Positions 37,868 through 46,104 of a stretch of DNA of 64,000 bases are shown here, piece after piece. Numbering within the stretch: the first letter of the stretch is position 1; every line of letters starts with the position of its first letter. Location: the NCBI GenBank assembly GCA_010094025.1, contig ML991804.1, positions 62,001 to 126,000 on the forward strand. Reading direction: 5' to 3'. The position numbers and the translations under genes were made by a program. The notes beneath the pieces were generated by a model. The model saw nothing but the letters and a program-made list of their open reading frames with translations. It did not search any database and was not told where the DNA came from. The DNA comes from Viridothelium virens. Lineage: Eukaryota; Ascomycota; Dothideomycetes; Trypetheliales; Trypetheliaceae.

Positions 37868-39278
37868 ATGGCCGGCGCAAGCGATAAAGCACGCTTTTAT
37901 CTTGAGCAGTCGGTTCCGGAATTGCAGGATTTGGAGAGGAAAAAGATATTTTTGAAGGTATGTTTCTGATCAAGAATCCTCGACCTGTGAGATAGGACTA
38001 AATTCCAAACTCAAGGAAGAAGTTTCGTCCATTGCAAAGAAGCGTTCTGATTTCGAACATGTCCTCAACGCCAGAGGCTCCAAACCTGCCGACTATGCAC
38101 GCTATGCAGAATATGAGATGAATCTAGAGACGCTTCGGCGCAAGCGAGTCAAACGTATGAGCATCAAGTCCAAGAGCTACGCAGGATCACGTCGTATATT
38201 CTTTGTCTTAGATCGGGGCACGCGCAAGTTCCAAGGAGATCTTGGGCTATGGATGCAGTACATGGAGTTTGCCAGGAAAGAAAAATCGCACAAGAAATTG
38301 AGGAGGATCATCTCGACAGTACTGAGCTTACATCCCACAAAACCAGAGCTCTGGATATACGCTGCCCACTACGCGATGGAGGATCAGGCGGACATGCGAG
38401 TGGCCAGAGCCTATATGCAACGTGGCCTACGATTCTGCAAGAGGTCAAAGGCGCTATGGCTAGGATATGCAAAACTCGAAATGATTTACGTTGCAAAAAT
38501 TGCAGCGCGACAGCAAATCATGGGCTTGGATCATCCACAGGAGTCCAAGGTTGAAGAGTCTTCTCTAGACGAATCACATGCTGATAAGATTGCCTTGCCT
38601 GACATTACGGCCGAAGATGTCAACCCCAAGCTTGCGAACGACGAATCAGTTGACCAAACGGCGTTGCAGAAGCTTACATCTTCTCCAGCACTTACTGGTG
38701 CTATCCCCATCACAGTCTTTGATACAGCCATGAAGGAATTCGACAACGATGCAGCGCTAGCAGAAAAGCTCTTCGACATGTTCTCCGAATTCGAGCAGTC
38801 TCCCCCTGCCCTGAACATTCTCCGCCATGTTCAACATATGCTCCAAACCCATTGTCCGGAAACACTTTCCTGTGCAGTCTGCCTATTTAGACTACCTCTG
38901 ATTGCTGTGGAACCGGCCTCTGAAGAGTTCCCGGTGGCCTTGGGTCAGTCACTTGACAGGCTGAAGCAGTCTTCCAAGGAGCACCCCCAAATCAGTACAG
39001 AGTTAGCCGAGAGAGCCGTGAGAACTTTGTTACCCTTTGTGCAGTACCAGGATTTGGATGACAACATTTACCGTGTTCTCAATGTGTCTATCCGGCAAAA
39101 TTTAAAGACGATGGCACACGGGTCTGGACTGGATGAGAGAGTTATTGCTGCAATCCAACGTCTGGAGGAAGAAGGTCGTGTCAAGGATGCTTCTGCGCTG
39201 ACTTCGTATGCTCTAAAATGCTGGCCTTCGGACGCCCGCTTGCAAGAGCGAAAAATCGCGGGCTCGCCTGTATCGTGA
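37868..39278 (+). CDS. utp6: UTP6, U3 snoRNP (SSU processome) protein
   Basis: Two exons, 37868-37957 and 38016-39278, phase 0 (450 residues; yeast Utp6 is about 440). The N-terminus MAGASDKARFYLEQSVPELQDLE and the following basic segment (KRSDFEHVLNARGSKPADYARYAEYE, LRRKRVKRM) are the conserved U3 protein 6 region. HAT helical repeats follow (DLGLWMQYMEFARKEKS, PELWIYAAHYAMEDQADMRVARAYMQRGLRFC, SKALWLGYAKLEM). It works in the nucleolus in the UTP-B subcomplex for 18S rRNA processing. The C-terminal half is more divergent. The intron has a GACTAAAT branch. Confidence 0.93.
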
Positions 39279-41497: not shown

Positions 41498-42009
41498 ATG
41501 ACCGAGTACGTATATTTCATACCATTCATTTTACGAGTCAGTTCAAAGCCCCTGTTCGTACCAGGGGATTAGATGATTCAGTTCCCTTTCCTTGCTTACT
41601 CATGGCAGAGACAAGTCTCTTCCACCAGAGCAGCCTCCATCCTATGAAACAACTATAGCTACCACTGGCGAACGCCAAGCCGGTGCGGAGCCTTCGGCAA
41701 GGTCTAGAGCTGCTCCGAATCCTAATGACAAGCCCAACAAGTTCAGCTCCAATTGTGGTACCTCCACAGGATGCACTATGTCATCCGCATGTAAGGAGTG
41801 CCAGGACTGCTCAATGTGCAGCAATTGCTTGCGCTGTGTGGGTTGCAAGATGTGTAAGTCTTATATGTGACGTGAGCTAGACTAAATAATGATAGACTGA
41901 CGGCTTTGAAGGCTCGAATTGCGTTGATTGCGAGGATTGCGTTGGCTGCACCAACTGCAGCGGGCTCAAGGGTGCCAAGTACTGCTCGAATGAGCATCGC
42001 GCTCTGTAA
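41498..42009 (+). CDS. Cysteine-ladder small protein (C every third residue)
   Basis: Three exons, 41498-41505 (8 bases), 41609-41853 and 41912-42009, summing to 351 bases (116 residues). Donors are gtacgt and gtaagt. The second intron splits a cysteine codon (t/gc) within the repeat and rejoins it exactly. Residues 64-100 have thirteen cysteines at a strict three-residue period (C-K-E-C-Q-D-C-S-M-C and so on). The other three cysteines (52, 58, 109) fall in the same register modulo 3. The N-terminal 50 residues are polar and disordered, with a PPxY motif (PPSY, about residues 12-15), a ligand for WW-domain ubiquitin ligases. There is no signal peptide, so it is probably cytosolic. Possible roles are metal binding or a stacked cysteine beta-solenoid; neither is shown. 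Confidence 0.8.
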
Positions 42010-44490: not shown

Positions 44491-46104
44491 ATGTCCTACT
44501 ACCCTGGACAACAATACCACCAGCAAGGAGGATATGGTCCTCCTCAGTATCCCCCTCAAGGATATCCTCCACAGCCTCAGTACGGGCCGTAAGTTCCGTC
44601 GCGTACCGCTTAGTGCACTTCGATGCTAATCTGTGAGAAAGGCCTCAAGGCTACGGGTACGGAACTCCTTCGCCACAACCACCACAAAATTACGGCTACG
44701 GCTCTCCTCCTCCTCCAGTAAACTATGGCGGATACAATGTGAGTTAAATCCTGGGGCGTCAATCGAGCAGATGATCTTATGAAGTTCAGAGTGGGCCGCC
44801 GCCTCCGCAATACGGCGGTTACGGACCACCGAACGGAGCTCCCCAATACAACCAAAGCTCAGGTAGGCAAGATACTCGCATCTAAAAGCCATTGCTAATT
44901 GTCACTATAGCACCTACGTATCAAAACAGCGCCTACATGCATGGCAACCATAGCGCTCCTCCACCTCCGCCTCAGCAAGCCCAGCACTTTGGATCGGGTG
45001 CTCCGGGTGGATACACTTTCCAATACTCGACCTGTACTGGTCGCAGGAAAGCGCTGTTGATTGGCATAAATTATTTCAGCCAAAGAGGACAACTCAGGGG
45101 ATGCATCAACGATGTCAAGAACATGTCAACCTATTTAAACCAGCATTTCGGCTACAAGAGGGAAGACATGGTGATTTTGACTGACGATCAGCAAAATCCG
45201 ATGAGTCAGCCTACAAAAGCGAACATCTTGCGAGCGATGCATTGGTTGGTGAAAGACGCGCAGCCGAACGATTCGCTGTTCTTTCACTATTCTGGTACGA
45301 AGATCCGGCACTTTAGAGTTGCTCAATTGAAACTGACGTCCTTTAGGTCACGGTGGTCAAACTAAAGATCTGGATGGAGATGAAGACGATGGGTACGACG
45401 AAGTCATTTACCCTGTGGACTTTAGAAATGCTGGACATATTGTTGACGACGAAATGCACCGGATCATGTGAGTCGGAATATCATTTGCTTCCTTTGAAGA
45501 AAAGATGGAGGAAGACTAATGCGGCCCACAATAGGGTTGCACCTCTACAAGCTGGTGTTCGGTTGACTGCCATTTTCGACTCATGCCACTCCGGCTCGGC
45601 TCTTGATCTCCCCTACATCTACAGCACCCAAGGTGTACTCAAGGAGCCAAACCTCGCGAAAGAAGCTGGGCAAGGTTTACTTGGGATTGTTTCAAGCTAC
45701 GCTCGTGGCGATATCGGTTCGATGCTGAGCACTGGAATGGGACTCATAAAGAAAGCGACGAGTGGCAATGATGCGTACGAAAGGAATATCAGGACCAAGA
45801 CCAGCGCAGCAGATGTAATCATGTGGAGTGGAAGCAAAGACTCACAGACTTCGTACGTCACCTCTCCGGCGACCCCCTTCTGTGGTTCTTTGACTAACGT
45901 GCCGACAGATCCGACGCGCAGATAGCAGGAGAAGCTACTGGAGCAATGTCTTGGGCTTTCGTATCAGCTCTAAAGAAGAACCCACAGCAGAGCTACGTGC
46001 AGCTCCTGAGAAGCATCCGAGACGAGCTGCAGGGCAAGTACAGCCAGAAACCGCAGCTCAGCTGCAGTCACCCCCTGAATACAGAATTGCTGTATGTCAT
46101 GTAG
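44491..46104 (+). CDS. casA: Metacaspase-1
   Basis: Seven exons: 44491-44588, 44642-44738, 44790-44862, 44911-45294, 45347-45467, 45535-45852 and 45909-46104, all phases agreeing (428 residues). The first 140 residues are Pro/Gln/Tyr/Gly-rich (prion-like prodomain typical of fungal metacaspases). The catalytic domain starts at [20 protein letters not shown]. The catalytic His is in GHGGQ (about residue 219), whose first glycine codon is split by an intron; the catalytic Cys is in IFDSCHSGS (about 275). Acidic residues [12 protein letters not shown] match the calcium-binding region. It is a Ca-dependent cysteine protease cutting after Arg/Lys, with roles in protein quality control and cell death. 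Length matches fungal casA/MCA1. Confidence 0.95.

Follow-up and report, generated by a model that had tools for sequence, protein, structure and literature searches.

In the window, the 64,000 nucleotides at positions 62,001-126,000 of contig ML991804.1 of Viridothelium virens, a lichen-forming dothideomycete of the Trypetheliaceae, a gene with three exons and two introns (41498-42009, + strand) encodes a product of 116 amino acids in which all 16 cysteines keep a single three-residue register. We consider it probable that this ladder protein is small and cytosolic and that it consists of a disordered tail followed by a narrow beta-solenoid with a core of thiols, the solenoid acting as a rigid rod that binds a partner. 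Mycobacteria, viruses (named phages among them) and a small number of eukaryote-like proteins have similar ladders with the same polarity of their triplets and often with a leucine cap. Such cysteine-core proteins, found in a fungus, phages and bacteria, appear to constitute an undescribed protein kind.

The cysteines of the V. virens protein lie at residues 52 and 58, at every third residue from 64 to 100, and at residue 109. All 16 thus fall at positions equal to 1 modulo 3 of the spliced product, as an earlier note made from the DNA letters had claimed, and 13 of them (residues 64-100) form consecutive rungs. When the residues of the protein were shuffled 100,000 times, no register ever took in more than 13 of the 16 cysteines. 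At the DNA level, a six-cysteine pattern allowing up to one mismatch had five matches in the window, all of them inside the gene (41790-41958); 100 shuffles averaged 0.01 matches. Residues 52-109 comprise 20 register sites, occupied by the 16 cysteines and by Ser55, Ser61, Leu103 and Ala106; the motifs CxC and CC are absent from the protein. Read in steps of 12 residues starting at residue 52, the ladder region gives five units, all on the + strand: unit 1 (residues 52-63, CGTSTGCTMSSA; 41754-41789) with C, S, C and S in the register; unit 2 (residues 64-75, CKECQDCSMCSN; 41790-41825) with four cysteines; unit 3 (residues 76-87, CLRCVGCKMCSN; 41826-41919), in whose Cys85 codon intron 2 falls; unit 4 (residues 88-99, CVDCEDCVGCTN; 41920-41955), again with four cysteines; and unit 5 together with the cap (residues 100-111, CSGLKGAKYCSN; 41956-41991), with C, L, A and C. 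The C-terminus after unit 5 reads EHRAL.

A search with the single protein among 5.8 billion proteins returned only the public V. virens entry EV356DRAFT_503222, that is, the protein itself, and only two candidates shared words with it. Relatives were reached by pattern and by profile. Scans for ten cysteine rungs gave at least 120 viral and at least 114 prokaryotic stretches, most of which were low-complexity repeats or their other reading frames; among the matches listed, 252 arrays with at least ten cysteines were reduced by filtering to 34 non-redundant, sequence-varied ladders, 30 of which have at least five residues beyond the last cysteine and were used for cap counts. An alignment search detected 97 proteins at E ≤ 0.001 among 617 candidates, the V. 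virens protein included, and 64 of the 97 were inspected as sequences. Besides V. virens, the one named eukaryote among them is the insect Adelges cooleyi, represented by the partial record P0050; three more, P0023, P0041 and P0064, are called eukaryote-like from their sequences only.

When annotated phages were searched by tblastn with the V. virens protein (P0001), Flavobacterium phage FL-1 came first (E 2e-5) and Campylobacter phages followed at E 0.01 and above; among the best 20 of 35 records (E ≤ 10), FL-1 alone lay clearly below 0.01. Fifteen Campylobacter phage records match another ladder protein, L022, at E ≤ 0.001. In plasmids, six records were obtained with P0001 at E ≤ 10, the best at 4e-3. 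The family phrog_15341 of PHROGs, which holds phage proteins of unknown function, matches V. virens residues 58-111 (E 5.6e-6, 27 bits), a match that composition may drive in part. Neither Pfam (0 families at E ≤ 10) nor NCBIfam provided a family for the V. virens protein. The cysteine ladder is common to this protein, phrog_15341 and Campylobacter phage CPt10_1641, whereas the phage ladder proteins differ from it in their N- and C-terminal parts, the likeness residing mostly in the ladder.

The triplets of the ladder have a direction. In the V. virens protein, Gly, Asn or Asp precedes cysteine in 8 of 12 ladder triplets and follows it in none of 12 (Fisher p 0.0013). Across 96 relatives (1,498 triplets), all recruited by a ladder profile, these three residues make up 69% of the positions before cysteine and 11% of those after it, and 25 of 30 ladders picked by cysteine spacing alone have one of them before at least half of their cysteines. 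A tight coil requires the left-handed alpha conformation at its corners, and these three residues readily adopt it. The ladder also has a characteristic end: Leu103 and Gly105 form a cap that some of the viral and bacterial ladders have too. A leucine at the register position next after the last ladder cysteine, with Gly or Asn two residues on, is common but not universal.

Scored against a profile of 29 relatives from which it had been left out, the V. virens protein obtained 87.1 bits, and 75.5 bits when the places before and after cysteine were exchanged. Shuffling all non-cysteine residues of 51-116 lowered the score to 68.0 bits on average and 80.3 bits at best, and with the cap shuffled the score was at most 83.5 bits (300 shuffles each); shuffling within columns had little effect, 87.1 bits still being attained in 107 of 300 cases. 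Since the polarity exchange and the cap shuffles lower the score, the likeness beyond the cysteine period consists of polarity and cap, the contribution of the latter being inflated because most rows of the profile were chosen by a pattern that includes C-x-x-L-x-G.

Among bacteria, the mycobacterial ladder protein L206 was matched in 64 of 148 sampled Mycobacterium-group genomes at E ≤ 0.001, one of which (G034) has only a weak match with a stop inside. The same protein found no match in phages at E 0.01 by tblastn. In the mycobacterial proteins (L206:6380-6805, L187, L311-L339) the ladder is preceded by S/T/V-type repeats and ends mostly in CSGLR[GN]A, as in L187, L206, L311, L312, L314 and L319. 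The predicted model of L206 shows the same bridge pattern as that of the V. virens protein, from which L206 differs in its upstream repeats, modelled with low confidence. In 24 mycobacterial loci drawn from the better matches among the 64 genomes, the ladder gene lies in seven cases directly behind genes for the flavoprotein and iron-sulfur subunits of succinate dehydrogenase/fumarate reductase on the same strand (named by NCBIfam in L318 and recognized elsewhere by tblastn to L318). In another arrangement, also counted in seven of the 24, it stands beside a short-chain-dehydrogenase-like gene, although none of the 25 entries listed was a short-chain dehydrogenase model scoring above its cut-off; ten ladder genes adjoin neither.

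With a likelihood that we place somewhat short of even, the fungal, viral and bacterial ladders are unrelated by descent, sides with a small inward residue having converged on Cys-x-[GND]. The two word-sharing candidates among 5.8 billion proteins are few, the cysteine period by itself accounts for most of the profile score (the mean of 68.0 out of 87.1 bits), and most alignment rows were selected with the cap in their pattern, all of which fit independent origins. However, the 30 ladders gathered without cap selection still carry Leu at +3 in 15 cases, seven of which also have Gly or Asn at +5. Moreover, CSGL[KR]GA is common to the V. virens protein (with K) and to L206, L311, L312 and L319 (with R), four proteins that were likewise recruited without regard to the cap. 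If the fold did converge, the structural reading is unaffected.

Several ladders are joined to other parts. The A. cooleyi protein P0050 continues after its ladder into a lipocalin-like part (E 0.0014, below the Pfam cut-off); P0053, P0056 and P0060 join the ladder to a strand-rich-looking tail of the type [DN]PVFSFTSGNVLFTN..; and in L041:3751-4737 the part C-terminal to the ladder matches phrog_31265 (E 5.2e-28). From the joins in P0053, P0056, P0060 and L041, the ladder looks modular. Another type, represented by L179 and L031, has Pro before every cysteine (CGPCSPC.., CVPCRPC..) and lacks the Gly/Asn/Asp polarity. In Campylobacter phage CPt10_1641 (L340:1507-1932) a radical SAM gene stands third after the ladder gene, with two other genes in between.

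The earlier note had pictured a stacked cysteine solenoid, which the structure models bear out as the likely fold, with one repeat per turn, which the sequence did not support. Over residues 49-111, triplet identity rises at a lag of 24 residues (11 of 26; permutation p 0.0003, about 0.0024 when corrected for eight lags) and weakly at 12 (8 of 34, p 0.08), with no rise at lags of 3, 6, 9, 15, 18 or 21; within the strict ladder (64-100) alone, lags 12 and 24 are both non-significant (p 0.11 and 0.24). P0023 is periodic at 12 (p 0.004) and 24 (p 0.0009). Neither lag gives a signal in P0064 or in P0041, the latter being enriched at lag 3 (p 0.02). A pool of 95 ladders has no lag-12 signal, and its residue before cysteine shows an excess at lag 3 (z 3.4). 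As far as sequence goes, the 12-residue unit is supported in two proteins, those of V. virens and P0023, and is without support in the pool. One turn per three residues was rejected for the V. virens protein, which has no lag-3 rise; given the pooled excess, that rejection draws mainly on the model.

The protein we favour would have a tail of about 48-51 residues carrying a PPSY motif and, behind it, a predicted beta-solenoid of approximately five 12-residue coils. Each coil would have four sides of three residues: one pointing inward and nearly always cysteine, one forming a beta-bridge, and one at a corner rich in Gly, Asn and Asp. We infer the handedness of these coils, together with their structural length and the identity of the inward residues. 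Four thiols per coil would fill the core, and Leu, Ala and Cys would close the last coil. In a reducing cytosol the thiols would most likely serve as size-matched packing, giving a rigid rod perhaps 2.5 nm in length whose outer faces may bind a partner; on oxidation or overload they could cross-link or take up metal.

A cytosolic rod of packed thiols is suggested by three features: the lack of a hydrophobic N-terminal stretch, the Ser, Leu and Ala residues within the register, and the S/T/V-type repeats of the mycobacterial relatives. Across residues 1-54 the Kyte-Doolittle mean of a 15-residue stretch does not rise above -0.53, in keeping with the absence of a secretion signal reported in the earlier note. 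The PPxY motif that was noted there is indeed present, as PPSY at residues 12-15 (41634-41645, + strand) in the tail, which the structure model renders with low confidence. For a putative role in recruiting a ubiquitin ligase the motif is the sole basis: when residues 1-51 are shuffled, PPxY arises in 2.3% of cases, and the four other eukaryotic or eukaryote-like matches (P0023, P0041, P0064, P0050) lack it.

Metal binding, which the earlier note had ranked above disulfide stacking, is in our view a less likely reading than core packing. According to this explanation, Cu(I) or Zn would be bound by a metallothionein-like chain, or in centres stacked within the solenoid, for metal buffering or storage. 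The presence of 16 cysteines in 116 residues behind an N-terminus that is not signal-like speaks for it, and the seven mycobacterial ladder genes behind the iron-sulfur-containing succinate dehydrogenase/fumarate reductase genes offer a weak hint of redox or metal chemistry, but the other 17 of the 24 loci have no such genes adjoining the ladder. CxC and CC clusters are found in many metallothioneins, unlike in the V. virens protein, whose register also admits Ser, Leu and Ala and for which Pfam and NCBIfam hold no family. The S/T/V-type repeats upstream of the mycobacterial ladders tell against it as well. A more far-reaching proposal, to which we attach little probability, is that these cytosolic solenoids form one family, spread between phages, bacteria and eukaryotes, with a core of unbroken four-thiol layers. 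The reduced stack would then itself do the work, by taking on metal or iron-sulfur centres or by conducting oxidising equivalents along the rod.

It is improbable that the cysteines lock the solenoid by disulfides in the manner of the beetle antifreeze protein, so as to act extracellularly or in some oxidising compartment, possibly on ice. That protein is the best structural match of both our models, and fungal ice-nucleating beta-solenoids are reported to have disulfide caps sensitive to reductants (PMC13288671). However, residues 1-54 offer no signal-like hydrophobic stretch, and the V. virens protein has no TCT and a single TxT (residue 54), as opposed to the beetle ice face, to which every coil contributes both Thr of its TCT (PMC8038014). 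Ice binding as such was also rejected, as the V. virens protein lacks a TCT array.

Exon 1 (41498-41505) encodes M1, T2 and two bases of codon 3; intron 1 (41506-41608, 103 bases) runs from GTACGT to CAG; exon 2 (41609-41853) ends on the first base of the Cys85 codon; intron 2 (41854-41911, 58 bases) runs from GTAAGT to AAG; and exon 3 (41912-42009) includes the stop, all on the + strand and with both introns of the GT..AG class. A motif search placed a CTRAC-like branch site at 41897 in intron 2 and found none in intron 1. Intron 2 thus splits a cysteine codon inside the ladder while the register is kept, as had been noticed before, and its retention leads to an early stop in the ladder frame. 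EV356DRAFT_503222 is identical to the ladder protein over 116 of 116 amino acids (100%), so that a second gene model yields the same spliced product. Although two protein searches found no second copy in the 30.7-Mb V. virens genome and there is no close relative among 5.8 billion proteins, a gene-model or low-complexity artefact, with a functionless repeat that arose by chance or slippage, is highly improbable, since splicing restores the ladder across the intron, the public annotation has the same product, both cysteine codons are used (13 TGC, 3 TGT), and polarity and cap agree with other ladders. Upstream of the gene lies a U3 snoRNA-associated protein 6 gene (PF08640; window 37956-39278) and downstream a caspase-domain gene (PF00656; window 44886-45925), neither with an evident connection to it.

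A beta-helix of 12-residue coils is already known; what appears new here is a core in which nearly all positions are cysteine, in proteins with no visible export signal. This combination would offer a natural test of whether such a fold is held by packing, by disulfides or by metal, and the group would bring many unnamed phage proteins, a gene matched in 64 of 148 sampled Mycobacterium-group genomes and an orphan fungal gene under a single explanation. No paper on such cysteine ladders was found in the full-text literature searched, with subscription journals and preprints outside its coverage; the term 'cysteine ladder' has reportedly been used for a leucine-rich-repeat protein, judging by a title in a reference list.

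The closest known system is the antifreeze protein of the beetle Tenebrio molitor (PF02420; PDB 1ezg/1l1i), which was the top match of both models in a structural ranking that took a second look at the candidates of Foldseek, so that another fold may also apply. For the second model, L303 (collagen-like), L128, L227 and L247 were dropped from the first alignment (giving A4) and three other proteins were brought in (A5). Among PDB sequences, too, the beetle protein leads with both profiles (E 0.0007 and 0.0076), a SWIM zinc-finger chain ranking second to 1ezg for A5 (E 0.032). No Pfam family is reached by more members of the alignment than PF02420 (3 of 30, the strongest at E 0.17); the V. virens protein itself has no match to the PF02420 profile above cut-off (0 families at E ≤ 10). 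The depositors of CPt10 annotated six insect-antifreeze units along its ladder, four of them of 36 bases; the values given for these units, 2 to 29, appear non-significant. Two other candidates were set aside: an ordinary CXXC zinc finger, for which the V. virens protein has no Pfam family and zf-CXXC touches 2 of 30 members (best E 3.9), and a collagen-like protein, weakly resembled by L206 only (E 0.24). The beetle antifreeze beta-helix carries cysteine at two of the four inward positions of each coil, against up to four cysteines per coil in the V. virens protein, which shows neither a TCT ice face nor a secretion signal. The beetle protein has coils of 12 residues in which every third residue points inward (PMC8038014), an arrangement that the V. 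virens protein may share. Among fungi, the Mortierellaceae ice nucleators are predicted beta-solenoids with cysteine near their ends; they differ in having 16-residue coils, TxT arrays, 23-42 repeats and cell-free activity, and the accessible portion of PMC12978214 mentions no cysteine ladder. Cysteine likewise goes unmentioned for a cold-induced Flavobacterium solenoid in the text available of PMC13413566, and in the mineralocorticoid receptor, a predicted solenoid, the conserved cysteines are placed on the outside, according to PMC3851330.
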